Source: Odontocerum albicorne
Taxonomy: Eukaryota; Arthropoda; Insecta; Trichoptera; Odontoceridae
DNA length: 64,000 bases
Direction: 5' to 3'
Assembly (NCBI GenBank): GCA_949825065.1
Contig: OX463845.1
Span: 26,907,108 to 26,971,107, forward strand
The position numbers were made by a program, and so were the translations under genes. This document shows positions 1 to 64,000 of this stretch, in pieces. The notes below the pieces were generated by a model. The model made no database searches, had not been told where the DNA came from, and saw only the letters and a list, made by a program, of their open reading frames with translations. The stretch's first letter is position 1. Each line of letters begins with the position of its first letter.

Positions 1-81
1 TATGTATTCATAAATATAGAATTTGTTTATATACTCGTATATCATTTATACATCGTTCCCTTTTGCACCGGTTCATAAATT
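1..81. other. AT-rich DNA with one TACTCGTA octamer
   Basis: The only notable thing here is the octamer TACTCGTA at 32-39, one of 31 in the window. No gene or repeat was recognised. Confidence 0.5.
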
Positions 82-265
82 GTTAGCTAGGTATTTAAAA
101 TTCGTTCAGTTATCACGGACCCACCGAGATTCAAATTTCGAATTAGTTTCGGAGAGAATCCAAGTATTCCTCTCTCGCTCTCTTGTATTCAAAATACAAT
201 TCTCGTATTCTTTCTTCGACGACAACCATCGTATGGGTTTTGGCCTATTTATACTATGATAATAA
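82..265. repeat. Interspersed or direct repeat, copy A (family unknown)
   Basis: About 180 bp that recurs in the same orientation at 1287-1482. Both copies begin GTTAGCTAGGTA. They share CACGGACCCACCGA, the block GAGAGAATCCAAGTATTCCT followed by a CTCTCGCTCTCTTG run, and an end reading TATTTATAYTATGATA. Identity over the middle 150 bp is high (my estimate is 85-90%). The two copies could be the long terminal repeats of a small element, since 1.0 kb separates them, or two independent insertions. I could not find a coding region, primer binding site or clear target-site duplication, so the family is left open. Small ORFs here are on both strands and look like chance. Confidence 0.7.
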
Positions 266-907
266 TGACTAAAAATAATTTCGTAAACGAATATATACTC
301 GTCTGTTTTTTTTTTCAAATATAAAAATGTGAACAATTTTTATAACTGCATATTAAAGAATATTTTAAAGTTCGCTTATCTTAATTGTCTTTTTAAAAAT
401 AATATGAAAAAATATTTTATCTCAGCTCAATACGGGAATCTTGTGAAACCTTATTCCAATTCAACCCTTTTGATTTAAAATCATTTTATAAACTCGTCAG
501 TAATATCAATCAGTCTTCTAGGCGTTATCATGTTATTTGTTTTTGTTAATTTCAATCTCAGCCAACAATACCTAACGAGATTGTAAATCTGTTACTTACT
601 GCGTTATTTATTGCCTGATAAGACATGTTAAACTATTTCCATTCATAGAGTGAATAATTACAAACGAACTATCACCGCATAGGTTCTGAAATTGGTAGGG
701 ACTAATTGCAAATCATATTTCCGCTTCAATTCTTTCACTTTTGATGACACAAAAAATATAATTTCTTGGTTCAAACTAAAGATTTTCAATAAAAAATTAA
801 AAAGATTTTTTTTTTGTTTCATTGGCAAAAGGATGCTCCGAGAACGATTTTTTATTTATCACATTCGGTTCAAAGGATAAATGAATATATTTTTATTATG
901 TCCATTT
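266..907. other. AT-rich unannotated stretch
   Basis: Lies between direct repeat copy A and a SINE. A 62-codon ORF at 692-880 is low-complexity and lysine/phenylalanine-rich, as expected of AT-rich noncoding DNA. Nothing else was recognised. Confidence 0.5.
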
Positions 908-1114
908 TATTGTATTATACTTTCGTTATATACAGTCCAGCCTGGAGGCTTATTTCCATATAGCAATTTCTTCCAACCAACCAGAAACATGTTAAAGAGG
1001 GATTAAGTGAAACCAAGACTGGAATCTTTTTAAAAAAAAATCTGGGTTATCGTGATTTAAACCCGTAACCTCCGGATTAAGAGACAAGCGTCTTACCAAC
1101 TAGACCATGGAGGG
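908..1114 (-). repeat. tRNA-derived SINE, near full length
   Basis: Read on the minus strand it has a tRNA-like head with an A box (GTCTAGTTGGTAAGACGCTT) and a B-box region, a TCTGGTTTT-like body, the conserved core GGTTGGTTGGAAGAAATT, and a tail reading ATATAACGAAAGTATAATAC. The B box is degraded (GGTTTAAATC instead of GGTTCGATTC), so it is unlikely to be transcribed. It is a member of the SINE family that recurs about 25 times in this window. Confidence 0.85.
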
Positions 1115-1129
1115 CGTATACTATATTAT

Positions 1130-1262
1130 ACTTCACTTTATTTCAAACAGCACAACTTGACGAACTTATTATCATATTTTCCAACCAACCAATGAGATGT
1201 ATAAGTTATCTTAAGTGAAAACTAGAATTTAATTCTTTTAAAAAATGGGTTTTAACGGGAAT
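1130..1262 (-). repeat. SINE fragment, same family
   Basis: Starts right after the previous SINE in the same orientation. It retains the GGTTGGTTGGAAAATAT core, the TTTTCACTTAAG body and an AACCCATTTTTT segment, but lacks the tRNA-like head. The pair may be two nested or tandem insertions. Confidence 0.6.
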
Positions 1263-1286
1263 TTAATCTATTAATAATAAAAAACT

Positions 1287-1482
1287 GTTAGCTAGGTAAT
1301 AGTTTCGATCTGTTCATTTACATACATTCATCACGGACCCACCGAGTTCAAATTTCGAATTTATTTTCGGAGAGAATCCAAGTATTCCTCTCTCGCTCTC
1401 TTGTATTCAAAATCCAATTATCGTATTATTTCTTTGGCGACAACCGTCGTATGGGCTTTGGCTTATTTATATTATGATATGT
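1287..1482. repeat. Interspersed or direct repeat, copy B (family unknown)
   Basis: Second copy of the repeat at 82-265, same orientation, about 1.2 kb downstream. It carries a short insertion near its start (TTACATACATTC) relative to copy A. Confidence 0.7.
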
Positions 1483-2705: not shown

Positions 2706-3597
2706 AAACTTTGGTAAGCGTTTTGCGGTTTTGTTTTTGCTAATTTTGTTTTTCTAAACATATGCAGAAGCGGGTATGTTCCCAATCTTCTATCCACAGC
2801 CACCACCTTCCTATCCTTGTATTAAAGTTTTGTAAAAGTATTAATCTGTCAATAATTGCGGGTTCAAATCCCAAGTAGAGTGCCCTTAAGGAGAGTCTGC
2901 TCTCTGAATGGCGCTATGAAAGTTGTCCTTTAATTTTTATTATTATCTACGGGAAACGATCCAAATTCGTGAAGGTTTTTGAATGTCTCAAATTACAAGC
3001 AATGTCTTGGCAACCTTCCATATTAGGATGATGCAGAAAATTCCCAAAACAATTTATAACATCCAATACGAGTTCATTCTTCTAGCGATATAAATGAGTT
3101 TATGCATTATATAAAATAATAAAATAAATATATTTTAATTAATATCCTACAATGTTGAATTCATTGATATGAAAGTTTTCCGTGGTTGTGTAATAATGAT
3201 TGCAACTTTTGTATCCCATGATTTCGAAAAGTTATTAAAAAATCTGCCACATTTTATACAAAACGTAGTTATTCTGTGACCAAAGCCGATTAATATAAAA
3301 ACCGATGTTTTCGGTGACCATTTAATTTTAAATGAAACATCGTTAAACACCACAGAGACGAGTGACGATCGAATACAACATGACAATTGTCATAATTAAG
3401 CAGCCGCATTATTGATGGGTAAAAACATAAATTATTACCATCCAAATGAGGTTTTTTATTTTCTTTCTGTGCAGGGTCTTTATGAACAAACAAAAAAAAC
3501 TGCAAAACGACTTTTTTTGCATTATTTTCGCATAATTATAAATGTATTACAATACTTCAGAAAAGCCTAAAATATAAAGAAGAAAGTACGACGATAA
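2706..3597. other. Mostly unannotated; possible SINE B box at 2857-2875
   Basis: Contains GCGGGTTCAAATCCC at about 2859, a Pol III B-box-like sequence, followed by a GC-richer 60-bp run. This could be another tRNA-derived SINE relic with no readable head. The overlapping small ORFs at 3147-3505 on the minus strand have no recognisable domain. Confidence 0.35.
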
Positions 3598-3852
3598 CCT
3601 AGGTGACCTAGTTGGTAAGACGCCTGTCTCCCAACGGAGGTTGCGAGTTCAAATACCGCTGGAATCCGGATTTTTTAAAAAAGGATTCTAGTCTGGTTTT
3701 CACTTAAGGCCTCTTAAACATCATTCTGGTTGGTTGGAAGAAATTACCACATGACAATTAGTTTGCCAGGTTGCACTGTATACAACTAAAGTGAAATACA
3801 ATACAGAGAAATTTTTTTACTAAGTTTTTACCTACATAAAAAAGTAGACAAA
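3598..3852 (+). repeat. tRNA-derived SINE with 3' extension
   Basis: Good copy: A box (GTGACCTAGTTGGTAAGACG), B-box remnant (GAGTTCAAATACC), the GGTTGGTTGGAAGAAATTACC core, and a tail TGTATACAACTAAAGTGAAATAC ending near 3803. After this the segment TTTTTACCTACATAAAAAAG at about 3830 aligns with DNA in the same position downstream of the SINE copies at 28140 and 37532. The family may therefore be about 50 bp longer than the usual boundary. This copy gives one of the 'empty' sites for the TACTCGTA insertion at 28393. Confidence 0.85.
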
Positions 3853-6905: not shown

Positions 6906-8983
6906 CTTTGAATACAGCTTCTTCAATTTTTCGATCTTCTAACAGTTCTTTCGTTCGAAATCCCATTTTCTGTGTCCAGAAACACGTTTTTTGTGATTTA
7001 TTTGCCTCGCTCCTATCCATGTCCGCCTTTATAGACTTTTTTGTCGATATTTTGTTATTCATTTGACATGTCCAAACCAAAGCAAAGTGATCGTTATCAT
7101 TTCATTTAACTCATCAGATCGTAGTCCAGATTCATTCATACTACTAAAAATTTCATGTTTTATGATTATATAATTTTCAGTACTAGTTCAAACTAACAAA
7201 TGCATTGAAATATGGTAAATTTTTTTTTGGAAAAACTAGTGGCATTGTTTTTTCCAAATGCAATCGAGCCTGAAACCTTCGATAGAAGTTTTAAAGTTAT
7301 CTGCCTTAGGACAGGCATACGCCTAGTAAAGCAGAAAAGTGCTTTATAGTACATATCATATTTAATTGTGAAAATTTAAAAATATAAATAAATAGCAAAA
7401 CAAGTACACACGAAAGTTTTTCTTATATTCTTAACCACATTTCAAAAGATTCTAGAGGAGGAACATATTATCAGTTTGTATTGGGTTGCATAGAGGGAAT
7501 TTTATTTAGGACAAAAATAAACTGCGTACAATATTTTTAATAACTTAATATTTAAGCTCTTGGTGCATTAAGGTGCGCTTAATCGATATACGGGATTTAT
7601 TTTTTGTTATTTTTAGCTTACTTAATTTATTTTATGTATGTCTACGTAAAATATGACGCTTATATGCTTTCTTAGTATGTATAAATCAAATCGATGCAAT
7701 ACCATATATTAAAACAAAAAATAATAATGTACAAAATTGACGAAAGTTTTCCAATAAACCGCATAACTTTTGGTATGCCAATAAGCATATTTTGTTCACT
7801 TAAAGGTAAGTTGACTCTTAAACTTCAATTGATCCATTTATATTCAGTACACGGTGCTTGTGATGAGGTCTTGTGCTCACGCGGGTCATTTCGCCGAAAT
7901 AAAGAGTCCACCACAAGGCGGTTTCTCTTGAAGATGAGATACACCAGTTTGGAAATACTTATTATGATCAGCAAATGTATTGAACATACTCGTACGTTAA
8001 TCAATTTCTTTTCCAATAGTTTATCACCATGTTCTGAAATTGAAGGGTGAGAAAAGAAACAATGCTATTTACGTTTTGATATAAAGTTTTTCCAAGCAAT
8101 TAATTTTTTTCATTTTTTTATTAAATTATTTCTTATTAGATTTAGGGGCATGTACGTTTAACTGAATATTCCAATTTGCTAATATTTTTTCAGAGTACGC
8201 AATCTGCATCTATAATAATATTTTTATGCTAAAATATATTTCTTTAAAATTGGTTTTTACATTAATTTGATTTATACGTACATTTTAATCTAATCCTTTG
8301 TTTATGTTAATCTAATGTGCATATTGAAAATCATACAGGTCGAAAAAAATCAAATCATCACATATTTTTACAAAATTCATGAACGGTATAAATTATTAAA
8401 ATAAAAACTTATAATTTATTCGGCAGGTCTTGTTTTGTAGCCGTGAACTTATGAATACTTTGATTATGTAAAAATATTTATATTTGTTTTAGCATATCGA
8501 GTAACAGCTACACAAAAAACTTGTTAATTTGAGAGTTTAACTTTCTTTGAAAGTAAAATAACTGAATACAGTGACTGAAAAATATTATATATATAAAATT
8601 TAACCGAAGTTAGAAATAAATATGACAATAGAAACAAAGATATGACAAACCATTATCCCCACTTGCCTTAAAAGGGTTATCATCCTGATAACGCAATCCT
8701 TACTTTATAAAAGATCAATTCATTTGGATTGAACACATCAAAATAGTTTGTACAGTATATTTTTATATAACATACTCGTATATACAACAATAAGGGCATA
8801 ATGCATAAACAAGATATTATAAATTGCTTTCCAAACTATTCGAGATTCTTTTTTCCTAGTAATTCACGTATAAATATTGTTTAGGAATCCAGCCCCATCA
8901 TATCCATATAAACATTTTAAACGAAATGATAAATATACGGGTGATAAATTCATTCATACATATGGTAACTGTTAATATACCCG
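6906..8983. other. Mostly unannotated AT-rich DNA
   Basis: Two TACTCGTA octamers (7987-7994, 8773-8780). A 118-codon ORF at 7694-8050 is the longest nominal reading frame here. It has no signal peptide, domain or paralogue that I recognise, and its middle (7850-7930) is less AT-rich. I do not call it a gene. Confidence 0.45.
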
Positions 8984-9091: not shown

Positions 9092-9281
9092 TTTATTTTA
9101 TTTAACCTAGCGAGTTTATTGCCATGTGGAAATCTCTTCCAACCAACCAGAAAGATGTTTTATAGGCCCTAAGTGTTAACCAGACTGGAATCCTATTTAA
9201 AAAAATCTGGATTCCAGCGGGGATCGAACCCGCAACCTCCGGATCGGCAGACAAGTGTATTACCACCAGGCTACGGAGGTC
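9092..9281 (-). repeat. tRNA-derived SINE, young subfamily
   Basis: Very well preserved. The minus strand gives GACCTCCGTAGCCTGGTGGT, an intact B box GGTTCGATCCC, CCGCTGGAATCCAG, GGTTAACACTTAGGGCC, GGTTGGTTGGAAGAG, and a 3' end AGGTTAAATAAAATAAAA. It differs from the window's other SINEs in the head (CTGGTGGTAA rather than CTAGTTGGTAA) and in lacking the GTATACAACGAAAGTG tail. It is about 95% identical by eye to 38812-39001, which suggests recent activity. Confidence 0.92.
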
Positions 9282-9403
9282 TTCATTTACTGTCGTACGA
9301 GATACACGTGGAGAAGCAATATACATATGTAATTTGAACACGAGTCAAGTATATCACGTTCGAGTATTCTTACCATTCGAACTCTTTAACAAGACAAACT
9401 TTT

Positions 9404-10104: not shown

Positions 10105-10160
10105 TTAACCCGAAACCTGACATTCAATCGTCTTACTAACTTAGCAACATACTCGTAGAT
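10105..10160 (-). repeat. SINE head fragment interrupted by TACTCGTA
   Basis: ACCCGAAACCT, then GTCTTACTAACTTAGC, follow the minus-strand head of the SINE (ACCCGCAACCT ... GTCTTACCAACTAGGC). Between the expected AC and GAGGTC the copy has an extra TACTCG, giving TACTCGTA at 10150-10157. Confidence 0.5.
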
Positions 10161-10474: not shown

Positions 10475-11506
10475 GGGTGTTAAACATAAGTTGTGTCCGT
10501 TTTTTTTCAATTAAAAAATGAGCACCAAAAGTAAAACAAAATGGTAAAGGTTATACGTCATTCAAAAGAAAATTTTCTGCTTTACAAGATATTGTGTTTG
10601 CTTTTACGTTACATATATTATTTTATTTGATTACAAACCTTCAAAGGGGAATGTCAAGTAGACGAAAGTGAGCATTTTCGACACCTCCTTCTGTTCGCGT
10701 TCAATCGAGGGAATAAAGCTGCTTGCGATATTTGCAAAGTGTACGGTGAAGATGCTATGAATAAAAGGACAGCTCGTCGACTTCGATGAAACCCGCTTAA
10801 ACCATATTATTCATGAAGATTCCCTTCAAACCACCGTAGAATTTGCTGAGCAGATGAATTGTAGTCACGTGATTGTATAGCACCATCTTAAATCAATGAG
10901 TACAGTCCAGAAGTTCGGCGCTTGGGTTCCACATGTTTTGAGTCAAAAAAACAAAAATCAGCGTTCGACAATTTCTGCTGGTTTGCTCGCGCGTCATCGA
11001 GCTACGCATGGCCACAAGCAAAGGTTCCTTTACCGCATCATTACTGGTGATGAAAAATGGTTTGAAAATGGTGATGAAAAATGTTTGAAGGAGATCTTCG
11101 TGAATAATGTGGTTTAAGCGGTCCTCATCGAAGTCCACTGGTCATCCGGAACGCTCCCTGTCTTTCAGGTCGAAATTACCGTCTTTGAAACGCAAAAACC
11201 ATCGACGAGCTGTCCTTTAATTCATAGCATCTTCACCGTACACTTCGCTAATATTGCGAGCAGCTTTATTCCTTCGATTTAACGCGAACAAAAGGAGGTG
11301 TCGAAAATGCTCACTTTCGTCTACTTGACATTCCAGTTTGAAGGCTTGTAATCAAATAAAATAATATATGTAACGTAAAATCAGAGACAATATCTTGTAG
11401 AGCAGAAAATTTTCTTTCGAATGGCGTATAACTTTTACCATTTTGTTTTACTTTTGTTGCTCATTTTTAAATTTGGAAAAAAACGGACAGAACTTATGTT
11501 AACACC
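10475..11506. mobile_element. Fold-back mariner (Tc1/mariner), both arms carrying the transposase 5' end
   Basis: Ends are inverted repeats (GGTGTTAACATAAGTTGTGT type), flanked by TA on the right. Unlike a normal mariner, with about 28-bp terminal repeats, the inverted homology runs hundreds of bases inward. The left arm contains the terminal region plus the start of the transposase on the plus strand (10650-10790, then 10785-10830). The right arm contains the same regions on the minus strand (11330 down to about 11085). Between them a plus-strand segment reads a linker with WVPHVL, then RFLYRIITGDEKW, which holds the first catalytic Asp. The left arm lacks the codons around WFLRFKDGNFDLK. 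The second and third catalytic residues are absent, so it cannot encode transposase. A member of the same family is at 52558-52990. Confidence 0.85.
10650..11117 (+). pseudogene. Mariner transposase remnant inside the fold-back element
   Basis: The plus strand encodes the N-terminal helix-turn-helix region (HFRHLLLFAFNRGNKAA, then KVYGEDAMN). It then jumps by an internal deletion to FDETRLNHIIHEDS and on to FGAWVPHVLSQKNK and RFLYRIITGDEKWFEN. WVPH.L and TGDEKW are mariner signatures, the latter containing the first Asp of the DD34D triad. The frame stops shortly after, where the sequence turns back into the inverted arm. An in-frame stop lies near 10880. Confidence 0.75.
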
Positions 11507-13261
11507 TAATACGTTCCAAATAAGTTCATAAAAGTGTCATTTGTGAAAATGTAAACAGTTATAATTTATCCGATTTTTCCCTTACTCTATCAAATATTGG
11601 TAACAAAATATTCTACACATTCTATTCTACGCTCGCATTTCTACAACATTTTTAATAATCATTTTAAGAGAAAGAAAAACAAACGATTATCCCTAATACC
11701 TCTTAGAAGACCGTAAATATGGTATCTCCGGTGTTCGATAACCTAAGAGTCATACCTCTATTAAAGTTTGGATCATCTCTTCTGACCACTGTAGATAAAT
11801 AAAGTGGAAACCAGAGCTAAGCGACAAAAAAATCCCTGGGGAGTATTATATTTATAAAATTCTATTGAATCTTAGTCAACACTTGTACCTATCCAGGATG
11901 CTAACCAATTCCTGCATGCCTCCAGTGGAACTCTCTAGGAAAGCTGCTAAGTCAACATTAACTTTGATTTTACCTTCTTTAGTGTTATCTTCCTCATTAT
12001 ATCTTTTGATCGCCCCATTTCAGTCTTTATTAAGTTCAATTAACTGATTAATAATTAACTCATATAAGGTTTATTCCTTTTTCAAATTATAACAGTTAAA
12101 ATATCCTTACATAAGATCAATGGTTTCCAAGTATTAAACGTTTCCATCTTAATGGGTGAATCCTTTCATGGATTGACAGTTAAAAAATAACGTTTAATAA
12201 GGTATACTCGTCTTAATAATTTTATAAAATATGTTCATGCCATTAAAATTATTATTATTATTTCTGGCTTTAATATTTCCTGTACAAATTAAAAGTTTTC
12301 TAAAATATCTCAAGTTGAATATTTTTCTTTAACTTTTAATTTACAAAGGAAAAAATTTTTTTTTTTTAATTTTTCTTGTTCTTTCGTGAGGTTTCCTTCA
12401 GCATATCTGAATCGAGATTTGTGCATATTGCATCGTTTGGGTAATGAGTATGATGCAGTATCGGACATATTTGGAGACAGTTATAATTATGCCTTTTCTC
12501 TCAAGGAGCATTTTTTATTATTAGAACCATAATTCCGGCACCATGGCCTGAATTTCGTTATTATTTTCCTTCATCACGTTGATTTTGTTTTTTCTCTCTC
12601 AAAATTTCCAACCTTTTTTTTTAAATATAGCAAAATCTTTGTTCATGTGTAGTGAGTAATTGGATTATATGAAGAAAGTATATCGTGATAAAAACGTTTG
12701 GTGCTCTGTTTCCTCTGTTTATCCCAACAGGAAAAGGGCGTGATGGTATGTCAATTTTATTACGTTCTCACTGCAAAGTATGAAGTTGCATGTTATATGA
12801 AGAAGAATTTTTTTTTGAAATATTTTATTTTACTAAACATATCCAACTAAATTTAACGATTTTTTTTGCTGTTAAAATATCCAGAATCGATTTAAATCAA
12901 TAAAATTTAATTAAACATAATCATCACTTGAGGGCAAGGTGTAAGTGGAATCAAGCACTGTGAACATTATCGATACATTTTTCACGAAATTTTACAAAAC
13001 AAGCATTGCATGAACCCAATCAACAGTATGGGCATCGAAAATAATTTCGAAGACCCCCTCAATTACTAGCCCATTATACATTTTATTTTTATTTTGGCCC
13101 GGTTGCACTTTTCTTAAATTATGTTGATCGTATTTCACTAACAAGTCGTGGGAATTCAAACTTTGACTTTGAATTGCATTAAAAGTTAACACTGTTGATT
13201 GGTGCATCACGATATTTTGTTTTTTTTTAAGTGTCTGAAGATCAAAAATTATTCAATACTT
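11507..13261. other. AT-rich unannotated stretch
   Basis: No repeat or coding segment recognised. A 60-codon ORF at 11865-12047 lies in a mildly GC-richer patch but shows no domain. Around 12245-12262 there is a short ATT microsatellite. Confidence 0.45.
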
Positions 13262-14790: not shown

Positions 14791-16891
14791 AATATTGAAG
14801 TGATCATTTTTCAATGTTTAATTTCATTTGTGAGACCGCAACGCAAAAAACAAGGATTTTCAATGGCATTGTACCAGTACTTCATGTTACTCAATACATA
14901 TTTGGTATTTATGACATTAAAATATGATTAGTTTTAACTTCTTTTAAAATATACTCAATAACCACAAATTTCACGTAACTTTTTCATCGCAGATAGTATT
15001 ATTTTATATTATTAAAAAAGCATGTAAATGAATGGATTTTAAATTATAATAAAATATTTGATGTGTATAACATTAAAATGTGATGAGTTTTTACTTTCTT
15101 TATAACATACTCGTATACACGGGTGCTCGATAATCACGATTTTCAAGTAACTTTGTTTTAATGTAAAGTATGGTTGATTTATTAAGGTTACCACAAGCAA
15201 GCATTATGGTCTCATTAAACAATTTAACAAGTATTTGGTTCGTGCTATAAAATTACGGATTAATTTAATAAATGGTGAAATGTGTCAGAAATAACAATGA
15301 TTTCGTTTAAATTATGTTATGATTGCATGTTATTCCGAGAAGATCGTTGGATTAAAAGAAAGTGGGCTGAATACAGATTTTCGGACAACAAATTTACAAC
15401 ATACCCATTTTAAACATTTGCAAAATGGTTCATTTTTATTATTATACCCCTTGATCCTTGAAGTGTTTTTGGTTCAGTAAATTTGCTTTATTTAAGCTGT
15501 TGTAATAAGATGAAAGTTGAATATTTCGTGAGAGTCATGAATCATTCTTCTCAGTGACTATAATATCCAATTATTTAGTGGATCGGAGAGCAAACTTAAA
15601 CATTTCATGAATTCTAAAGATGGAAAAGACATAAAAGCAAAATAATCTACAATCTTTTCAGGTGTTTTTCAGAAACAAATGTCTCCCACTAGAGTTTTAA
15701 AATTATAAAGAGATAGCCTGCTAATGCTAAATAACGGCCAACATAAACCTGGAAGAGAAATCAGTCCACAATCAATAAACAATAGAACCATGATTGCTAT
15801 TACTTAGCAAATATGTTATCATATTTTGTAAATTTCTTCTCTAGTTAGCAAGAGGTTTGTCTTCCATTCGCGATTTACAAGTATCCAAAATATAATAAAT
15901 AAAAGCAAAAATAGGGTTTTGGTATGTTAAGAATTTGTCTACAAGTTTATCGTTACCTCTCAACAGTATCAGTAGACGTATCTACTGCGGACTGATAGCG
16001 AGTCACGTGCTAATGTATTCTCCCAATTTTGTGTCCCGACTACTCTTCAACATATGAACATCACCAATGCGGATATTTACTGAAATAACGTGCGAATTAA
16101 TTAAATGAGCCATGCTATGCAGACTTTTTTTAACCACGTCATACAAAAACCTTTGAGATCTGTAAAGTTTTTCATAAAGTTTCAAACCATATTAAAAAAG
16201 TTAATTAATTGTTTGATTTAGACACCATCAATTTAACAAAATGTTACTTATATGAGTAATGGCCATCGCTGGAGCAAATACTACATTATTTCAGTTCTAA
16301 TAAGATTTGACAGAAAGTGTTTGCTCTTTAGAGCAGATACTCTTTGCGATCACTAAAGATTTCGCAGATGGGCAATCTATCAGGAGGATGGATAAAGCCT
16401 TAATTTACATTGGTTTACTATGGACAAACTACATGTCACAGGAAACTCCTTCACAAGATGATTAAATCATAGTTAAAATCACTAGAAATTACAAAATAGT
16501 TTTGATTTACTATAGATTTTTAAACGCGAATTCAGATCGCGTTATATGTGAGAGTGCAAACCATTCTCGGATCGAGACTTCAAATTACTTAACTTCGTTC
16601 GCTCGATCATATCGCAATCACATATCGCAATACTTATTTATCTAAATTCAGGCCAGTCTACTACCTAACGCTCTAAAACGTAATCTAATGATCCTCTGCA
16701 ATATAACTTAAGGATCTTAACGTTTAGTGTCCTAACGTAGAGCAGCCCAATAACATTTGGTTTCTTCTCTCAATTCCCCCTTAAATAGCATGTGTCCATC
16801 TGCCGTGTCTGGTCTGTACTAATATCGCTTTGCTGGATCGTCAATGAGCTTTCGTCATGGTTAATTTGAGTCCATGATTTGCATATCCACA
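14791..16891. other. AT-rich unannotated stretch
   Basis: One TACTCGTA octamer (15108-15115). No repeat or coding segment recognised in about 2.1 kb. The 60-codon ORF at 16003-16185 (minus) shows no domain. Confidence 0.45.
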
Positions 16892-17175: not shown

Positions 17176-17317
17176 TGAGCTTCCAGATTTATTATAAACT
17201 TATAGTAAAGAAACTCATTTTCCAATATGTAACGTTTTTTGTAATACTACTCGTATGCCAAGAAGAAACAATAACGTTACAGACATACTCTTTACCAGAC
17301 TTTTTTAAGTACAATCA

Positions 17318-47530: not shown

Positions 47531-49713
47531 CCATGTATGATAGATAATATTGATATCGCATATGATGATGAATTGGGAGTTATAAACCATTTTTTTCTAG
47601 ATCTATCACTATAAACTGTCAACTATCCAATAGATTGTCAACCTAACGATCCTAACTATTGTACTCGTATTATAAATTTTGTTTTGTCATATACACATGT
47701 ATTTACTGTTTGCTTTTCTGTGCCTGAAGGCAACTCTATACACCATCCCGAATGTGTCACCATCACATGTAGAAAGACCTGCAAAGATTTTATTTGTATT
47801 TCGTCTTCCTCTGCCCAGTTTTCTGGGGATTACTTGCAAAATGTATATCTATTACATACGCAAAAGTGGACAAGTTGCTGGATACAGGCAGAAGATGATA
47901 CGACAGACACTTAAAAATTACACTACGATTTTAATTACTTTTTAATTTTAATGAAATAAATCATTATTTTTCCAATTTTTAATTAAATAGAGCCGTAATT
48001 TGATTAAAACGCCACCAATGTGAATCGAGTCACCAAATGGCGTTATACGAATTCTCTTTTATTAAAAATATCATTACTTAACTCCAAGTTCCTTTTTCCG
48101 TTCCATGGACATAGAGAAAAATAAGTGGAATTATTGTTGTTGAAATGACTAATTCATACGAATTGATTTATTCGAATCACGTTATATAATTATGACAAAA
48201 AATACGCAATCATTAACGAATTATGTTTAAATAAATAGAAAAAGATACTCGGAATGCTAATATTAAATACTACGCAAATCAAACCAGTACAATACTTACT
48301 TTTATTGAATTCAATAGCATTAATTTATTATTTTTATACATTTTTAATCAAATCTGGATTTAATTTTCACTACTGAAGTAACTATCAAGTGGTATAATTG
48401 GATACAGCAAAACTCTTTGCAAGTTCCAAAGGCGTTCTTTGACAAAGAGAGGACCTTAAATATTTCGTTTTTTATTATTTTGTTCATCTTCCACGAATCT
48501 CTGAATGGAGATTCGCAATAATTCAAGTCGCAGGTGATTTATGAGATCGGATGTGTTTGAGATTTATATTTTTGCCTTGATGCAAGTTTACTGTAACTGT
48601 AACAGGCGTGACATTTATTTTGATAAAACTGCCATCTGAAACATGTCTGATTTATTATTGTTTGTCAGACATTAAACAATAAATTAATTGTTGTTTTGTG
48701 AATCACTTCCTTGAGAAAAAATCTTATTGTTTTGTTACAAGATGACATTTTACTTTTCGATTGTCTAATTGTTGTATGGTCTTATATATTATTGTTTGAT
48801 AAATAATATCTTTGTAAAAAAAAATATTTTTCGAATTCCATATCAAGTATACCTTTATGTATAGCTGAACAATGTTATATTTTTTTGAAAAAAACTTTGT
48901 CGATATCAATCATTAGTTCAACTGAAAATCCTCCTTTAATAGTTTTTTTTATTTAAAAAAAATTGATGAGCGATGATTAGTTAGTCAGCAAGTATTATTT
49001 TGTTAACTAAAATTATTATATAAATTATTTTTAAGACGTGATTTTCACACAATTCTTTGTTTTATTTCAATGAGCTAAAATTTGATAGAATTTATTCAAA
49101 ATGAATTAATAAATTAAATGTGGTGTTATTTAATTTATGTTTATACTTTGTCTTAAAACTGCCTCAATTACATTATCAATGTTTAGGTGCATAAAGTTGT
49201 TATAATTATATCTAAACATTACCTCAATTATATCACAAAACCTCAAATGTATCAAATCGTAATGGATAAGTCAATTGAAATAAAAATATTTTAATCCTTT
49301 TCTAGTCTTCCCTCCAGGAATAAAACTGGTTTTTCATAAGATTAACTTTCTTAAACAGATCTCGAATACCTAATTAAATCGATGAAACTACAAGATTGAT
49401 GTGTATCCTTGTTTATTGAATGTTTAATCCTTAAAAGTTGACATTTATTATCAGGATGACACTATACAGAAATTTATTACGATATTCCTAGTACAAGTGA
49501 CTTGAGCTATCCTAAGTACACGTAACACTATTAGAGAATTGCGTTATACTTAACTCTGATTAAGCGCGCTGTTTGGATAAGTGCATTATTTATTACTCTC
49601 AATGAAATTACCTGATAAATGTTCCTTAATATGTATAGGTTAACAGCTATGAGGATTAAAGCTAAAAAGGAGTATTAATAGAAGAAAAAAACTGTTTTTA
49701 TTAAATTGAACTT
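47531..49713. other. Unannotated; two overlapping ORFs at 47679-47945
   Basis: The frame at 47684-47914 has several Cys (PECVTITCRKTCKDFICIS) and less AT-rich DNA than its surroundings. The overlapping frame 47679-47945 starts with a hydrophobic stretch. No family recognised, so not called as a gene. Octamer at 47662-47669. The remainder to 49713 is AT-rich with nothing recognised. Confidence 0.35.
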
Positions 49714-51665: not shown

Positions 51666-52557
51666 TTTGAGTTCATTTTCTATAACCTGTCCCTTTAATT
51701 TAATTTCTTTAATTTATCCATCATGGTTATGTTTTCAATAACATTCTAACGATTATCATAACAATCTTAAGATAACTCTTGGTGTTCGATGTGTATTATA
51801 ACATATTATACAAGTATATAGGATGTATCATTTTACTACAATAACATTTTCCCTGTGGTATTTATAAATATTTAAATTTATCATGTTATTTAATGTTGTA
51901 TATTGACTCTCTTTCAAGTTATTTTGATATGAGCATTCTAAATTGCGAAGTAAGTGACAATCATGTTTTTCTCAAATTCGATTTACTTAAATAGTCACAT
52001 TCAGTATCGAAAATTCTGAAATGTTTTAATAATAGAATTTTTTTAATATATACTATTTAATTAATGGATGTACCATATATAAATACTATAAGATACTATA
52101 ACCATTTACAAGCAGGCGCGCAAAGCCAATATGGGGTGGGGCCGCAGAACGGCCAGAGGCGGAGTCTACTTTTTGTACGATTTTGTAAATTTAAAAAATC
52201 ATTCTTCATTTTATCAATGTTTGTTAAATAAAAGTGACCACAAGACCTTTCCATAAATAGAATGGATAGCATATTTGTATTAAAAGAAAATTGCACCTAT
52301 TCCCTTAAAATCAATGACTGCTACTCGTATAATAACAAAACAACTGTCTTGTACATCAACGTTATTTTTATAGCAAATTTTTAACTAAAAATGTTTTTCA
52401 AGTTCTGCCCATCCTCTCAATATTGGATTTCATCACGTTCATCCTGGACTAATGTCTTGAAATACAATAGGGACCAAGCCCCAATTGGCATAACTTACTT
52501 TTGATTCCTTTTTTGGTAAAACCGTGAATCCCCGTGTTAGTGTTTTTGTATGTATTA
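51666..52557. other. AT-rich, with a GC-rich island at 52110-52175
   Basis: The island (GCAGGCGCGCAAAGCCAATA, GGGGTGGGGCCGCAGAACGG) is unidentified. Octamer at 52322-52329. Confidence 0.4.
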
Positions 52558-52990
52558 GGTGTTAACATAAGTTGTGTCCGTTTTTATCCAATTTAAAAAT
52601 GAACACCAAGAGTAAAACAAAATGGTAAAGGTTATGTTTTTCAGGTCGAAATTACCGTCTTTGAAACGCAAAAACCATCGACGAGCTGTCCTTTCATTAA
52701 TAGCATCTTCACCGTACACTTCGCAAATATCGCGAGCAGCTTTGGCAGCTTTATTCTCTCGATTGAACGCGAACAGAAAGAGGTGTCGAAAATGCTCACT
52801 TTCGTCTACTTGACATTCCATTTTGAAGGCTTGTAATCAAATAAAATAATATATGTAACGTAAAAGCAAACACTATACCTTATAGAGCAGAAAAATTTCT
52901 TTCGAATGACATATAACCTTTACCATTTTGTTTTACTTTTGGTGCTCATTTTTAAATTTGGAAAAAACGGACACAACTTATGTTAACACC
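52558..52990 (-). mobile_element. Internally deleted mariner, same family as 10475-11506
   Basis: TA-flanked (52556-52557 and 52991-52992). Ends are GGTGTTAACATAAGTTGTGT and its complement. The inverted identity runs about 80 bp inward, including GAGTAAAACAAAATGGTAAA, far beyond a normal mariner TIR. On the minus strand the transposase begins MECQVDESEHFRHLFLFAFN, then KAARDICEVYGEDAINERTA and RRWFLRFKDGNFDLK, an intact N-terminal helix-turn-helix. Coding ends abruptly at DLK, where the sequence joins the left terminal repeat. No catalytic domain, so non-autonomous. 433 bp. Confidence 0.9.
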
Positions 52991-53196
52991 TAATGCATCG
53001 ATAATTTTTAATGCGATGAATTAAAACAAAACATATCGTTGTAAGATAGCATAAATGTTCTAAAAAACTTATTCAAATTAGATGATTTATTAAAAAAAAC
53101 GATGTATTCCAGGTTAAAGAGCATAACCCACGATATGCTATTTTACAAGAAAGAAGATTGACTTTATAATTTATTTCGAATTTCAGAACATATAAA
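52991..53196. other. AT-rich unannotated stretch
   Basis: Nothing recognised. Confidence 0.4.
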
Positions 53197-53878: not shown

Positions 53879-54302
53879 AACGATTTCTTTTTAAATAAGC
53901 TCAATCGTTGTTTAAGTTTTGCGATGATATAATCATAATTCACATCAAACACAACTTGACTTTTCAAAGGAATATCGTTTGAGAAGAACATAACATATAC
54001 GGTGTGAAACGGATATACTCGTAATACATGATCCATGATATCACCTTAGATCTAAGTTAATGTATTGAATCTTACTATTAAATCAAACCTAAATTGTACA
54101 ACATAACGCATGATAAACTATTGTGCATTTACTAATCGATACACATCATGTCTCACCGCAAATTACACGGTTTGATTTTATAAAATACTGGATATTTTAA
54201 GACTGATTTTTATATTGTAAAAAGAAAACAGATTTTAAATACAACTCAACACCTCTGAAAATAATACCGATACCAAATATCTAATTAATGATAATTGTTG
54301 AT
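53879..54302. other. AT-rich unannotated stretch
   Basis: One octamer (54016-54023). Confidence 0.4.
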
Positions 54303-54694: not shown

Positions 54695-56375
54695 CTTACG
54701 GAGAGGCGTATTACTGCATTTTTTATATTTTTACTTTTATCTTAAGTTTCTTTAAGTTTTTAATCGTTTTGTTCATCATTGTTTTTCGTTTTTAGAAAAT
54801 AAAGATGATCTTGGTTTTAGGTTTTCTGTATTCATATTTTATCAAATTTGTCTTTTTGATCAAAAATTAATCGTGTAAAGTCTTGTAGATTAATCTTCAA
54901 TAGTTATTCTTCTTTAAAGTTGCTCTAGTCTTCTGCGATTGGCGACCATCATGGATGTCTTGAGATTTGAGGCAGCAGCTCTGAATAAAGATATGATACC
55001 ACAGTGAAACAACTCTCTTAAGTTCTTCAACCAGGACTCTTCTGCCTGAATTGTCCTCTGCAATATTAGTTGAAGGATCTCGTATTTTTATCCTTGAATT
55101 GATGAAAATTGTCTATTCCTTTTTATTTTCCAATTTTATTGTTGTGTACTGGAAATGGATTAATATATTTTTTGTATCGATGATGGTTTTTCATATATGA
55201 ATTAATATGTGTCTTAAAAATTTCATTAGTTTCCTCAAAAAATTAAATAATATTTTCTCACATATGGTATTACACAGAGGTTTGCATTTTAAAATAATTC
55301 AATAAATTGAAGTCTCGATAAACAATACTTTCATGTTATGTATGAACAATATTTTTATCTCTTAGTTAAGTTTTACTTAAAGATATTAAAATAAGCGGTA
55401 AAAAAACTCTTAGTTAATAAATGTATTACTTGAAAGATATTAAAATATACAGTAAAAATAAAAATTAAATTAAAAAATGCTATAAATCTAAATTATGCGT
55501 TTTTTCAATGAAATATCCTTAGTAAATTCAATGTTTCTGATTTTAGTTCTCTTTCTCGGTGTAGTGGTTGGATTCAATATGACTTCTATTTTCGTGTATT
55601 TTTATGAATTGTCTATATATGATGTATTTTTTTTTGTTTTGTGAACACAACTCGCCTTAGGATGGATGTACGACTAATTAGGGAAGTGTTTTGTTTACTT
55701 CATTGTAAAATTTTAAAAATATGAATCAATTGTAAAAATAAATATATGAACTAAGTTGTCAAACTGGAAAGAAAAAGTTAATTTCATTAAGTTAAAATAG
55801 TATACGAGTATCTTAACCTAAACCGCTTATGACTAAAACGTTTAGAAAGGGGGCATTAATCGATCATCGATTGTAAATCTCTCGTGATAAGGCGCACTAA
55901 TCGCTCCAATTATTTTTATTATTATTATCAAACGTGTGAAATATCCCACGGTGCCGAATCAAGTATAATCGATGCAGAGACTTTAAAACTCGATTAGAGA
56001 TTTAACATTTTTATTTAATAAAATATCGATTTATTTAGTAAAATACCCACAAGGCAGTTAGATCCGCAATGTTTCTTTTTTTAATTTAAGGTAGAAACCA
56101 AAAGCCTATAAAATACGATACAATTCAAAGGATATCATAAGATTACACTAACAAGTTTTTATCTGCCTAAAAAACAAATAATTTTGTAGAAAAATAATAA
56201 GCCAAAAAAATGTATTTCATAGTTACTTTATTTCATATCATAAAAAATCTATGGTGTTTTTTCTTTTATTTAAACAGAAAAGAGTTGAATGGGTTATTTT
56301 TGTAAATGTACGTCCAATTGACTTTCAGATTAGACTGCGCTGTTTGTCGCGAATCGGGTCCAATCTTACAACTCA
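54695..56375. other. AT-rich unannotated stretch
   Basis: About 1.7 kb. Octamer at 55803-55810. No coding segment or known repeat recognised. Confidence 0.45.
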
Positions 56376-56640: not shown

Positions 56641-56818
56641 ATATAGAGCTTAAAAATTTAAAAAATGTCTCTTTTAACTCCATATAGAGCCTACAAACAC
56701 TTAAAAATTTAAAAAATGTCTCTTTTAACTCCATATAGAGCCTACAAACACTTAAAAATTTAAAAAATGTCTCTTTTAACTCCATATACGAGTAGAACCT
56801 ACAAACACTTAAAAAGCA
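56641..56818. repeat. 51-bp tandem repeat, 3+ copies, last unit with a 6-bp insertion
   Basis: CTTAAAAATTTAAAAAATGT starts at 56649, 56700 and 56751 (period 51). The next unit boundary is at 56808, 57 bp on. The extra six bases change CATATAGAGCC to CATATACGAGTAGAACC, creating TACGAGTA at 56787-56794. Confidence 0.95.
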
Positions 56819-58754: not shown

Positions 58755-59850
58755 TTGTTTATTTTTAGTTTACATTACTTTTTATTCAAAATACACTCCT
58801 TGTAAGTCAAAACAATCATGAGTGCGGTTGTAAAATTTTCTGAAACACTCGTGAAACCCATTCTTCGGAATTGTCTCCAAAATCGTGGTCGAAGCCTTCT
58901 GCATGTCTGAAATCGTATCGAAACGCTTTCCTTTCATCACTAATTTTAATTTCGGGAATAGCCAAAAGTCGTATAAAGCAAAATCGGGGGGTAATCGATA
59001 TTTTTTTTGACCAAGAAATCGCGTATAATCTTGCTTTTGTATGCCGGTGCATTTTCGTGCAATCAAGACCATGCCCCTTGTTCCCGATATTCGGGTCAAA
59101 CTCGAAGAATCCTGGCCCACAAACGATTCAAAACACTCAAGTACACATCGGCGTTCACCATTTGACCTTCTGGATAATTCCTGTGGAACCAAAGAAAACG
59201 GTAAGCAGAATCTTGATTTGGCTCTTCAGCATATGCACTTTTTTCGGTTTCGGATATTATGGACCCTTCCATTCCGAGCTCTGGCTCTTTGTAAGGGGCT
59301 CATACTAAAAGCACCGTGTTTTATCACCTGTTATAAAGCTTGACATGAAGTCTTGATCCATATCAGCCGCTCTTTTTATGTCTGCAGTACTCCACTCTGC
59401 AAACGATCGTCAGTCAGTATGTGACCTTTCGTTTGTTCAAATTTTCCGTTAAAATGATACGGACAGTGGATTTAGGAACTCTAGTGAGCTACTCGATGAG
59501 CCTAGTAGACGAACAATAATCATTTTGAAGAATTTGAGCCACTTTTTGAAAATTTTCTTCAATTCGAACTGTCAATGATCGTCCAGGCCGTGGATCATCT
59601 TCAATGCTCTCTCTACCATCATGAAATCTTGCATACCACTTAAAAATGTTTTTACGACTCATTATTTCACTGACATAACGAGTTCGAATCATTTCAAGAG
59701 TTTCTGTGGCACTTTTACCCAATTTAAAACAAAATTTAATGTTGGCCCATTGCTCCATCGTTCCTTTTCCGACCGAGACTCAGGTACTGTCAATTGTTAC
59801 GTCATTACGAATGAACCAGTGATGCCAGCGCTTTGAAACTTTTACAGAAG
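58755..59850 (-). pseudogene. Mariner transposase, near full length, dead
   Basis: Minus strand. N-terminus at 59758: MEQWANIKFCFKLGKSATET, then IFKWYARFHDGRESIEDDPR. Middle: PKPKKVHMLKSQIKILL, VNADVYLSVLNRLWARILRV, RPEYREQGAWS. Core: LHENAPAYKSKIIRDFL, DFALYDFWLFPKLKLVMKGK, RFDTISDMQKASTTILETIP. C-terminus about 58785. The second catalytic position reads HEN (Asp to Glu), and only 28 residues separate it from the next acidic residue instead of 34, so about six codons of 'PPYSPDLAP' are lost. Several stops and frameshifts (59050, 59190, 59260-59480). A GRESIEDDPR.GRP linker is typical of one insect mariner subgroup. Confidence 0.85.
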
Positions 59851-60153: not shown

Positions 60154-60754
60154 TTTTTAATATTCTTCAAGTCATAAAAAAAACAAATACGTTTCTGAGT
60201 ACTAACCAATTCGCATATTTTAGTCATTTATTGGAAAGATATATCTTCCCATGAGAAATATGGTGCAGACATGTACTCGTAAGTATGTTAGGTAAACAAT
60301 TTCGTCATACATGTATTTGCGCTTTGAAGCGATGTTCGTAAATTCCCGCGAGACAGTTAACAGAGCAGAAAAAACTTGCGATGGTTTAACTTAAAAAAAG
60401 AGAAACGATAAGTACGAACATTTGTATTCAAACATTATGTTTTGTACGTATAAGGATTAAAATGTTGATGGTAAACCAACATTTCCTGACTTTATTTATG
60501 TGCCTTTTTATGTAGTGTGATATTTTACAAAAAAAGTAGATTCATAAATTATGATATCAAGTTATTTAATTAAGTAATCTCGTATTACATCTACGTTCAC
60601 ATTTCTGTGATTATATTTACTCATTCTGATATTCTCATATTTTTCTACACTGGTAATTCGCGGGAATCTTTTCATTATTACCTCTACATGGATGCAAATC
60701 GTGGGTCCCCTAAATACGACATAGTAAAGCACTCCTAAAAAAATGTCAGCAGCG
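60154..60754. other. AT-rich unannotated stretch
   Basis: One octamer (60274-60281). Confidence 0.4.
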
Positions 60755-61171: not shown

Positions 61172-62474
61172 GGTCTGAAAATATGAAACCAGATTCTTTT
61201 TAATAGAAAATACACATTTATTGTATGAAAATAGTAAAAAATATTTTATTCAAAGTATGGCCCATCGCTAGCTACACATTTTTCCCATCTCTCTGGCAAT
61301 TTGTGGATGCCACGCCAAAAAAACTGTTGCTCTTTTGAGGCAAACCAATCATCGAGTCATTTTCGTAAGAAGTGAAGCGCTGCTCAGCAAGTGCGTGTCC
61401 CATCGATGCAAATAAGTAGTAATCGGATGGAGCCAAGTCTGGTGAGTATGCCGCATGCGAAAGTATTTGCCAACAAAACGCCTCAATCGTTTCCTTGACC
61501 GATTTTGCTGTGTGTGATGGTGCATTATCATGAATCAAAATCCCTTTGTGTTGCCTCTTTAGATATTCTGGTCGTTTTTTATTCAATGCTTGGTTCAAAT
61601 CCATCATTTGTTGTCGGTAGCGTTCAGTATCAACGGCTTCGCCAGGTTTTAGCAGCTCATAATAGATAACACCCTTCTGATCCCACCAAACACAGAGCAT
61701 TGTCTTCCGTTCATAGCGATTTGGCCTTGCGTCCATAGCGATTTAGCCTTGCAGTCGATGTCGCTGGTTTGCTTGAAGTTAGTTACCCGTGATCTTTTAC
61801 GCTTAGGATTCTCGAAATATATCCATTTTTCATCGCCAGTCACAATTCGATGGAGAAATGATTTTCTTTTGTAGTTGGCGAGCAACATTTCGCAAGTGGT
61901 TTTTCGGTTTTCCTGCTGTCACTTTCGGTTTTCATTTAGTTCTTGTGGAACCCATTTTCCCATCTTTCCCATGGGTTTCAAACGTGTGGAGACGGCTTCT
62001 CGTGTCACGTTTAATTGATCCGTGAGTTGTTGTCGCGTTTGAGCGTAATCCTCATCCAACAATGCTTGCAATTCGACGTCTTCAAACTTTCTCGGTGGTC
62101 TATCACGTTCTTCGTTTCTCACGTCAAAATGGCCACTTTTGAATTTTTTAAACCACTCAAAGCACTGTGATTTACCAAGAGGATGCTCACCGTAAGCTTC
62201 GACAAGCATTCGATGCGATTCTGCTGCAGTTTTCTTCAAATGGTAACAGAAAATCAATGCTGTCCGCAAATCGTAGTTTTTCAGGCACAAAAACAAACAT
62301 ATTCAACGCTATGAAAACATATGTAGTTGTATTAAACTTGTATTGTTGTAAGTTAAAAGTCTTTGACAAATGTAAACACAAGAAAAAGTGTCAATGTTGC
62401 GGTTTGACAGTCACTACATTGACAACTAGAGCCATCTATAGTATGAGCAAATTCCGGTTTCATATTTACAGACC
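61172..62474 (-). mobile_element. Near full-length mariner element, inactivated
   Basis: About 1.3 kb, the usual mariner length. The left end, after TA at 61170-61171, is GGTCTGAAAATATGAAACC. The right end, on the minus strand, is GGTCTGTAAATATGAAACC. These are imperfect terminal inverted repeats. The transposase runs on the minus strand between them (see next entry). It is the most complete DNA transposon in the window and probably the youngest of the full-length mariners here. Confidence 0.88.
61244..62296 (-). pseudogene. Mariner DD34D transposase, broken by three lesions
   Basis: N-terminal domain: KNYDLRTALIFCYHLKKTAA, YGEHPLGKSQCFEWFKKFKS, RDRPPRKFEDVELQALLDED, then KMGKWVPQELNENRK with a stop near 61918. 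It resumes at KTTCEMLLANYKRK, FLHRIVTGDEKWIYFENPKR (first Asp), YERKTMLCVWWDQKGVIYYE, KRQHKGILIHDNAPSHTAKS (second Asp) and AAYSPDLAPSDYYLF (third Asp, 34 residues later, so DD34D). Lesions: the premature stop; a 22-bp tandem duplication (61709-61730 and 61731-61752) that shifts the frame; and a shift at about 61370, after which LDDWFASKEQQFFWRG and KLPERWEKCVASDGPYFE continue in another frame. All three catalytic Asp codons survive. Confidence 0.9.
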
Positions 62475-63009
62475 TGGTATATGTATATACCTTAATCCCC
62501 AACTGTTTACAGCATCTTCTATCATACTCGTCACAGGTAATAGACATTTAAATTCAAAAAGTAAGTATCCACTTGTTTCAGACGCTACAGCATTTCTTGA
62601 TACATAACTTATAACTAAGCACTGATAACTTTATTATTAATTAACGAGAAATCGTAAAACTCACTTAACGCACACTCAACAAACTCTAGTGGCACAGGGT
62701 GTCAAAGAGAGCAGAATACAATTATTTTTAAAAACCCTGAAATCAATGCAATATATAATGGATAATATAGCTGATCACACTTACCAATGTTTTTTTTGTA
62801 GAAAGTTACTCTGGGCAGGTACACAAATATCAAATGGAAGTAGAAGATTCTCGGACGTTAAACAAGAACAAGTTGAAAGAGTGTTTGATGGGCATTAAGC
62901 ACGATGGTCTGACAGTTCAGTTCAATTCAATTCCACCACCCACCCACGTTGTTATGGAGACAAATAAGTCCCTGGCGCGAATCTTCTTTAGTTTTCTATG
63001 AGCGAGACG
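62475..63009. other. Unannotated
   Basis: Nothing recognised apart from an ORF (62689-62898) without a domain. 62920-63009 becomes less AT-rich on entering the next repeat. Confidence 0.4.
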
Positions 63010-63204
63010 TCACAGGGGGACGAAGAAATAACTGCCCAAAGGGACTCCTCTCCCGGTGGCGACACACCTGAATGTGAAAAGAATAGTAGCGATGAAGGAA
63101 AATGACTCGCAATGCAGTAAATACACATAAAACAGCTTAAGGTCTGGAGTTGGAACATCCTGGCGAGTTGTCAGTACTTTCACATAAAATTTCAAATACT
63201 GCAA
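63010..63204 (-). repeat. Unknown interspersed repeat, copy 1
   Basis: CCCGGTGGCGACACACCTGA, TGTGAAAAGAATAGTAGCGA, then GCAGTAAATACA. A 64-codon minus frame includes FIATILFTFRCVATGRGV. It pairs with the inverted copy at 63440-63580. Family unknown; could be a LINE or SINE body. Confidence 0.6.
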
Positions 63205-63439
63205 AACTATTCTTTGACACCACTAGATTCGTACAATTTTGTATATACTCGTATAAGCTCGCGTTGTTTCAATAGTAGGGGCCGTTGGATTATGTAATCT
63301 TAAAATAAATTATTACAACTGCTAGGTATACATCGTCTCGGCTCCTAAGAACATAAAGCGCTAGGCTGTGGACCGACATAGATGAATGTGTTTCATGGCA
63401 TCCCCTGTATACATATATGATAGTAGATAGATATAGTAC
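63205..63439. other. Unannotated spacer between inverted repeat copies
   Basis: Two octamers touch it (63246-63253 and 63437-63444). No gene. Confidence 0.4.
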
Positions 63440-63580
63440 TCGTAGAAGGATATTAAATTTACTGCGCCATTATTTCTCATCTCCCGTAATATCAGGCCTT
63501 AAATACGCCGTCGCTACTACGAGTATACTTTTCACACTAAGGTATATCGCCACCGGAGGATGCATATGTAACGATCATTT
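63440..63580 (+). repeat. Unknown interspersed repeat, copy 2, inverted
   Basis: Its plus strand, reverse-complemented, gives CGGTGGCGATATACCTTAGT, GTGAAAAGTA..., AGTAGCGACGG and GCGCAGTAAAT, parallel to copy 1. In plus frame YAVATTSILFTLRYIATGG corresponds to copy 1's FIATILFTFRCVATGRG. It carries TACGAGTA at 63518-63525, where copy 1 has a bare TA (63084-63085). Confidence 0.65.
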
Positions 63581-63699
63581 TACCAGTGCCCTACGAATCC
63601 GTCAAATTTGTAATTTTGTTTCAATTATTTTACTAATATATTTCTTACTGTTAAGGTAGTAAAATGCGTGTCGATAACCATCTTAATATTCTTCATATC

Positions 63700-64000
63700 A
63701 TGCTTTATCACTTCGTAAAAAGATGGACTGCAGCACAGTTATTTTACGATCTCAACGAATTCATGTTTCACATATTTGTCATCCCGCCAATATCACAAGC
63801 CGTTTATCATAACCTCCCTATGCATTATACCAGAGCGGTACAACTAAACACACCACATGGCCTTTTTGCAATGGACGACCTTTGGAATTATTTTCAGTCT
63901 GACCGGAATCAACGCACACCTTCTTTCGTTTGACATTTTTGAAGAGAAGCCATGATTCATCACCAGATATTAAAGAAAGGTATTTCGCTCGTTTCGCTGA
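63700..64000 (-). pseudogene. Mariner transposase fragment running off the window
   Basis: Minus strand from the right edge: AKYLSLISGDESWLLFKNVK, RKKVCVDSGQTEN, then after a frameshift IPKVVHCKKAMWCV, a stop, LYRSGIMHREVMING. This matches the mariner segment 'VTGDESWV...RK.SWVD...P....KKVML.VWW...GVI.YE.L', and SGDESW holds the first catalytic Asp. The rest toward 63700 is unreadable. Further transposase should lie beyond base 64000. The plus ORF 63664-63933 is a shadow. Confidence 0.7.

Follow-up and report, generated by a model that had tools for sequence, protein, structure and literature searches.

In a 64-kb window of the Odontocerum albicorne genome (assembly GCA_949825065.1, contig OX463845.1, C10 in the assembly numbering, positions 26,907,108-26,971,107), the octamer TACTCGTA, together with its complement TACGAGTA, is present in large excess. 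Our analysis indicates that most of these octamers are very probably excision footprints of a TA-targeting cut-and-paste DNA transposon with a Minos-type mechanism, and the genome seems to hold a record of several hundred thousand jumps. The word is abundant genome-wide, was gained at six sites as a 6-bp insertion that duplicates TA, and is found preferentially at A-TA-T targets. The same origin is proposed for the remaining octamer sites. Excision footprints as such are already known; what is unusual here is their scale and purity, with hundreds of thousands of exact copies and the parent unseen.

Abundance of the octamer

The first-pass annotation of the window listed 31 exact octamers in both orientations, and all 31 positions proved to be correct, with 22 copies of TACTCGTA and nine of TACGAGTA. 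Its independent-base expectation of about two copies agrees with our order-0 computation, which gave 2.4 copies on both strands. Markov models of orders 1, 2 and 3 gave 1.3, 1.8 and 2.0 copies, and the computed excess is 13- to 23-fold (orders 0-3), a range in which the roughly 14-fold value first proposed is a fair one. When window 8-mers with at least eight copies were ranked by z-score, the octamer was top at orders 2, 3 and 4 and only fourth at order 5, because the order-5 model absorbs most of the word. Among the TA-NNNN-TA words of the window it reached a z-score of 21.6, compared with 5.4 for the runner-up, TAAAAATA.

Outside the window we sampled 20 loci of the same assembly (L001-L020, 200 kb), which together with the window make a set of 264 kb; a set of 234 kb consists of the window and L001-L017. 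The octamer was present in 17 of the 20 loci and ranked first of the 29,544 8-mer classes in the 200 kb. The order-3 Markov comparison that had been suggested as a check gave 83 copies versus 6.0 expected in this sample, and 31 versus 2.0 in the window. The 264 kb hold 114 exact octamers, 92 of which lie in sequence that is unique within the sample, which argues against a single longer repeat as their source.

The scanned assembly comprises 1,287,057,991 bases in 1,241 contigs; the span tabulated for iiOdoAlbi1.1 is 1,287.3 Mb in 1,267 scaffolds (PMC11112305). One of its F-box-like proteins shares 55-59% identity with named proteins of Lepidoptera and 72-75% with two unnamed ones, in keeping with Trichoptera. 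Genome-wide, 190,749 forward and 190,753 reverse exact octamers were found (381,502 in total), 12.7-fold above the 30,151 copies of the reversed word, which served as a control. Thus, neither of the two outcomes that the first-pass annotation had named as evidence against its claim, a genome-wide count near the Markov expectation or a single longer repeat family holding all copies, was observed, and about 350,000 octamers are in excess of chance. An artefact of assembly or sequencing is hardly conceivable as an explanation, and so is chance composition: no point in support of either was found, and they are opposed by the excess over the reversed word, by the target-site preference and the presence of the word in diverged array units (see below), and by the quality of the assembly, which is described as a HiFi assembly of head and thorax DNA with a quality value (QV) of 57.7 (PMC11112305).

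At the single chromosome end that was examined, the first 100 forward octamers of chromosome 1 fall within C1:1-149,321, a density about 4.5 times the genome mean, and locus L029 (C1:51,001-61,000) contains 31 octamers within 10 kb.

Insertion at TA and the proposed excision mechanism

A related repeat copy spanned 19 of the 104 octamers examined. In six of these 19, the comparison showed TA in one copy and TACTCGTA or TACGAGTA in the other, a gain of 6 bp, the six extra bases turning TA into TA-CTCG-TA or TA-CGAG-TA; both CTCG and CGAG occur. At these testable sites, the word is the inserted four bases plus the duplicated TA. The empty sites are as follows.

Window 32, empty in L006
Window 56787, empty in the first two units of the 51-bp tandem repeat that contains it
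L001:1065, empty in L003
L013:3852, empty at L013:1827
L016:3617, empty in L006
L016:4101, empty in L006

At window 56787, the gap was split 1+5 by BLAST and was interpreted as a single 6-bp gap plus one substitution. The remaining spanned octamers comprised one with ten additional bases (L002:7723), five with ambiguous alignments (window 39135, L002:127, L002:6754, L008:5889 and L014:5811), and seven for which the related copy also carried the word, namely two in an array of L012, three in an array of L016, and L005:606 and L014:2230, in which the octamer is native to a mariner reading frame. We also surveyed gaps between related repeats without conditioning on the word. Among 20 six-bp gaps, five had the structure TA-NNNN-TA, with CTCG or CGAG as the inner bases in every case; these five TA sites all belong to the six empty sites listed above and are not independent material.

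The 31 octamers of the window are listed below. Plus-strand copies read TACTCGTA, and minus-strand copies read TACGAGTA on the plus strand.

32-39, plus strand, exact octamer; footprint, with the empty site in a related repeat of L006
6046-6053, minus strand, exact octamer
7987-7994, plus strand, exact octamer
8773-8780, plus strand, exact octamer
10150-10157, plus strand, exact octamer
15108-15115, plus strand, octamer with a diverged relative at 14898-14956; the match stops inside the word, no clean empty site
17248-17255, plus strand, exact octamer
22477-22484, plus strand, exact octamer
24116-24123, minus strand, exact octamer
25695-25702, plus strand, exact octamer
28393-28400, plus strand, exact octamer
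31286-31293, minus strand, exact octamer
32549-32556, minus strand, exact octamer
34561-34568, minus strand, exact octamer
34610-34617, plus strand, exact octamer
36274-36281, plus strand, exact octamer
38085-38092, plus strand, exact octamer
39135-39142, minus strand, octamer adjoining a 48-bp tandem array; array alignment ambiguous
43993-44000, plus strand, exact octamer
46732-46739, plus strand, octamer, first of an adjoining pair
46740-46747, plus strand, octamer, second of the adjoining pair
46894-46901, plus strand, exact octamer
47662-47669, plus strand, exact octamer
52322-52329, plus strand, exact octamer
54016-54023, plus strand, exact octamer
55803-55810, minus strand, exact octamer
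56787-56794, minus strand, octamer in unit 3 only of a 51-bp tandem repeat; empty TA in units 1 and 2
60274-60281, plus strand, exact octamer
63246-63253, plus strand, exact octamer
63437-63444, plus strand, exact octamer
63518-63525, minus strand, exact octamer

The flanks of the octamers differ from site to site, as had been claimed, except for a weak A..T preference. A flank logo of 101 sites showed A-T-A before the word and T-A-T after it, and the empty target accordingly approximates ATA-TA-TAT. An A before and a T after were found at 40 of 106 sites (a set that leaves out the two native mariner sites and six copies of two tandem arrays), compared with 3,389 of 24,564 TA dinucleotides (13.8%). 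Genome-wide, 122,672 of the 381,502 octamers read ATACTCGTAT, and the reversed 10-mer was found 2,416 times. Tc1/mariner elements typically insert at palindromic targets rich in A and T. The octamer sites are mildly clustered, with 12 neighbour pairs less than 100 bp apart versus 5.7 in shuffles (97.5% limit 10); below 500 bp no excess was seen (29 versus 24.1, limit 31). The head-to-tail pair at window 46732-46747 (TACTCGTATACTCGTA) looks as if a second insertion and excision had struck the TA beside an older scar.

HIP1 of cyanobacteria is likewise an exact octamer that is hugely over-represented genome-wide. HIP1 is a bacterial palindrome and is not known to arise by insertion, whereas the octamer described here arises by insertion at TA.

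In the mechanism that we propose, the transposon would insert at TA, duplicating it, and its later excision would leave four terminal bases between two TAs, giving TA-CTCG-TA or TA-CGAG-TA. Identical 5'-CGAG ends would be cut by the transposase with a 4-base stagger, and the two overhangs would pair at their outer C:G positions and be mismatched at the two central ones. Repair of this heteroduplex could retain either strand, CGAG between the TAs being read as TACGAGTA and the other strand as TACTCGTA. The parent would be Minos-like. Excision of Tc1/mariner elements followed by end joining is described as leaving a duplicated TA with a few constant bases inserted (PMC2874221, PMC3878927). Minos in particular is described as often leaving a characteristic 6-bp footprint, or else a deletion (PMC3386967), and a 6-bp footprint is also given for it in PMC10992017. 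A primer in PMC3680223 has the Minos end beginning TACGAGCCCC, i.e. TA|CGAG, and a title cited in PMC3386967 names chromatid repair by heteroduplex formation.

The octamer shares with Minos, a member of the Tc1/mariner superfamily from Drosophila hydei, the TA target with its duplication and the 6-bp footprint, and the CGAG ends of Minos predict the octamer. It differs in that the O. albicorne genome has no D. hydei-like end and, among the candidates scored, only distant transposase relatives, and in that the footprint in the published accounts cited above is the excision product of introduced constructs, whereas hundreds of thousands of natural scars are seen here. Octamer formation thus appears to work as in Minos, although one defining feature of the Minos family, the D. 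hydei Minos end, was not found. Sleeping Beauty and Frog Prince, for which the footprint C(A/T)GTA is given (PMC3878927), resemble the present case in leaving the TA-flanked footprint of a Tc1-like element; unlike the octamer, the corresponding words TACAGTA/TACTGTA are near expectation here (50 versus 44.8 in 264 kb). No enrichment of TACATGTA was observed in the 264 kb, in which its count was also near expectation.

Exactness of the octamers, germline origin in tandem arrays, and age

Near variants are rarer than the exact word, as the first-pass annotation had stated, the exact word being 10.9 times as frequent genome-wide as its mean single-mismatch neighbour. With at most one mismatch allowed, 613,740 plus 609,641 matches were found (1,223,381 in total), compared with 990,232 for the reversed word. 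After exact matches were subtracted, the 24 single-mismatch neighbours together had 841,879 copies (35,078 each), and those of the reversed word summed to more (960,081). In the 264 kb, there was no summed excess of single-mismatch copies (178 versus 183-192 expected), and from the figures for this set, rough arithmetic gives a mean decay of the octamer of at most some 2-3% per site.

Individual neighbours varied. In the window the only outlier among the 24 was TACTCGTC (4 copies versus 0.9 expected), which was at expectation in the other loci (2 versus 2.5). In 170 kb of other loci, high counts were found for TACTCGAA (15 versus 6.2), which is partly a satellite, for TACTCTTA (14 versus 8.3) and for TACTAGTA (10 versus 3.8), a palindrome that was counted on both strands.

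These results bear on whether the octamer might be a selected functional site, such as a protein-binding motif or one serving chromosome biology. The word is very exact, occurs on all nine sampled chromosomes and is dense at one chromosome end, as such a site might be. However, the graded near-match enrichment expected of a binding site was absent from the 264 kb, the word decays in tandem arrays, and it arises as a 6-bp TA-duplicating insertion, so that the empty sites argue against a functional origin for the copies tested. We therefore regard a functional site as extremely unlikely.

Tandem arrays provided a view of the history of the scars. In L016, five of the six 38-bp units of the array carry the octamer, and the remaining unit carries TACTCTTA. 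A 99-bp array of L029 consists of eight units: the octamer is intact in six, and the other two read TACTTGTA and TACACGTA. The same locus contains two more arrays, with six and five octamers. The scar is present in most array units and decayed in some, and therefore it predates array growth and was inherited in germline DNA. The octamers in tandem arrays are germline scars that decay like ordinary sequence. The first-pass annotation had proposed that something generates or keeps this exact word: generation is borne out, by the 6-bp TA-duplicating insertion at the testable sites, and special keeping is not, given the decay in arrays. The arrays with an octamer in the unit are the following.

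L029, 245-642
L029, 4132-4510
L029, 8234-8979
L012, 6206-6435
L016, 7400-7646

An apparent association of octamers with arrays was dropped: of 30 arrays with 2.5 or more copies, five carry the word in the unit (0.67 expected), and L029, which supplied three of these five, had been chosen for its visible arrays.

The assembly is described as derived from head and thorax DNA, and we also considered that the excision might be programmed, the elements being kept in the germline and cut from the soma in each generation, with only exact scars retained in a somatic assembly. The lack of a summed excess of decayed forms and of any parent in the 234 kb would fit such a process. Nevertheless, the array scars, present in most units and decayed in three, were inherited before the arrays grew, and young germline scars would explain the lack of decay equally well. 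Programmed excision is thus very unlikely to account for the octamers.

With regard to age, octamers per 1,000 TAs amounted to 4.8 in unique DNA (92 on 19,219 TAs), 1.4 in repeats less than 80% alike (2 on 1,466), 8.8 in repeats 80-90% alike (12 on 1,362) and 3.2 in repeats at least 90% alike (8 on 2,517, of which two are the native mariner sites and three belong to one tandem duplication). That octamers are scarce in the youngest repeats hints at an age of many scars greater than that of these repeats, with small numbers and an uneven trend.

The putative parent element and other features of the window

Several results weigh against the proposal that the octamers are scars of a Minos-type transposon. 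Direct support for insertion is limited to the six empty sites. In the gap survey, TA was also duplicated in gaps of other lengths (5 of 28 gaps of 4 bp, 4 of 22 of 5 bp, 1 of 12 of 7 bp, 1 of 7 of 9 bp and 1 of 2 of 12 bp), and therefore not every such gap is of the octamer type. Paired ends beginning CTCG or CGAG were sought in the 234 kb, and none were present among 161 TA-bounded inverted-repeat pairs (first 7 bases exact, at most 4 of 20 mismatched). For the D. hydei Minos terminal inverted repeat (TACGAGCCCCAACCACTATTAATTC), a genome-wide search allowing up to three mismatches returned 0 matches. Matches of the Minos transposase to Tc1-like sequences had 26-43% identity among the 113 of 30,650 first-look candidates that were scored, and those of P0221, of the Minos clade, had 25-52% among 119 of 22,863 scored, the 52% being over one short exon. 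The best of these matches form one family, and its three members examined as candidate parents (L030, L031 and L035) have ends reading CACT[GA]G[CT]GG, not CGAG.

Other searches gave similar results. Neither window end pairs starting TACTCG/TACGAG, five-base versions included, nor a listing across the 264 kb of TACGAG starts lacking a following TA yielded a parent element. By rough arithmetic, finding zero parents in 234 kb still permits up to about 16,000 copies genome-wide. A candidate from another family (L033) has the ends CAGTA[TC]TGTGCG, and ends were sought in two Tc1-like candidates (L032 and L034), with none found. Two further leads were set aside: TACTCGAA, which proved to be a satellite in L002 with scattered copies, and a Minos-like string at window 33159, which appears to lie inside a reverse-transcriptase-like reading frame and was judged to be chance.

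As a separate observation, a low-copy Tc1-like family related to the Minos clade (at most 52% identity over the last exon) was found at C43:6,570,392-6,656,570, C37:7,614,504-7,615,583 and C18:21,019,162-21,020,205. An intron-like gap of about 80 bp interrupts it, and its ends read CACT[GA]G[CT]GGTCATTGAAATG.

Given about 350,000 excess octamers and the lack, in 234 kb, of any element with CGAG as both of its ends, the proposed transposon family behind the octamers was probably present in few copies, moved many times and did so fairly recently. A bolder version, which we put forward tentatively and consider doubtful, is that in this lineage the family survives almost wholly by excision, either jumping at very low copy number or being confined to the germline, with somatic removal at some of its sites. 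It would then have produced over 300,000 exact scars, one every 3-4 kb, and be nearly absent from the somatic assembly. If so, the genome would be a fossil record of transposon excision and not of transposon copies.

An abundant candidate parent is already known, namely a resident mariner with unequal ends, TA|CGAGGC ... GCCTAG|TA. It has TA bounds and one CGAG end in common with the proposed element and differs from it in its other end, CTAG. If it retained two bases per end (CG + AG) on excision, it would yield TACGAGTA exactly; the octamers would still be excision scars, from a different parent and under another cutting rule. Copies with CGAGGC/GCCTAG ends are present in L004 (cut by the locus end), L019, L020 and L031; they are fairly young and 89-98% alike. 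Those of L019 and L020 are 97.4% identical and TA-bounded, and the ends have 20,770 matches genome-wide (at most three mismatches, both ends of a copy counted). Furthermore, TACTAGTA, a possible by-product of this mariner, is somewhat high in the 264 kb (10 versus 6.0, both strands counted). Mariners proper, however, generally leave three bases, and a 3-base rule predicts TACGATA, which is not enriched in the sample (31 versus 40.3 expected). A 4-base heteroduplex of the mariner ends would also predict TACTAGTA, which genome-wide (17,979 copies) is below its reversed control (24,353). Tc1/mariner elements are moreover described with 2- or 3-base overhangs (PMC3878927). On balance, the resident mariner is an unlikely source, though one that deserves some weight, and we favour a Minos-type parent with CGAG at both ends. 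The window itself contains broken mariner copies at 61272-62302 and 59489-59779, both on the minus strand, with a Mos1-type helix-turn-helix (HTH) domain in both and Transposase_1 in the first; these are unconnected to the octamer.

Excision footprints are usually observed singly, in laboratory crosses. Searches of the open-licence PMC literature listed no paper describing this octamer as a motif of a genome, or comparable excision scars throughout one. If our interpretation is right, a single footprint tops the over-represented 8-mers in 200 kb sampled from an animal genome of 1.3 Gb. Its copies would form a record of excision and end-joining in the germline that can be counted and dated, and the sequence by itself would suffice to measure excision rate, target choice and repair outcome. 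They also suggest that a genome may be marked heavily by a DNA transposon that leaves few copies, activity that repeat annotation based on counting copies would miss. Because every scar adds six bases, small in-frame insertions can arise in this way in genes and in regulatory DNA. The parent, if recovered and active, may serve as a genetic tool for insects.

The window also holds a dispersed repeat resembling a short interspersed nuclear element (SINE) at 3597-3798, 9104-9284, 38809-38998 and other positions (families D1, D3, D4 and D8). By reading, it has a tRNA-like head (GGTTCGATCCCCGC) followed by the core CTGGTTGGTTGGAAGAGATTGCCACATGGCAATAA; ARAGORN calls no tRNA genes in the window. At 10483-11520 and 52544-52998 lie palindromic elements resembling miniature inverted-repeat transposable elements (MITEs), with long inverted arms and matching ends.

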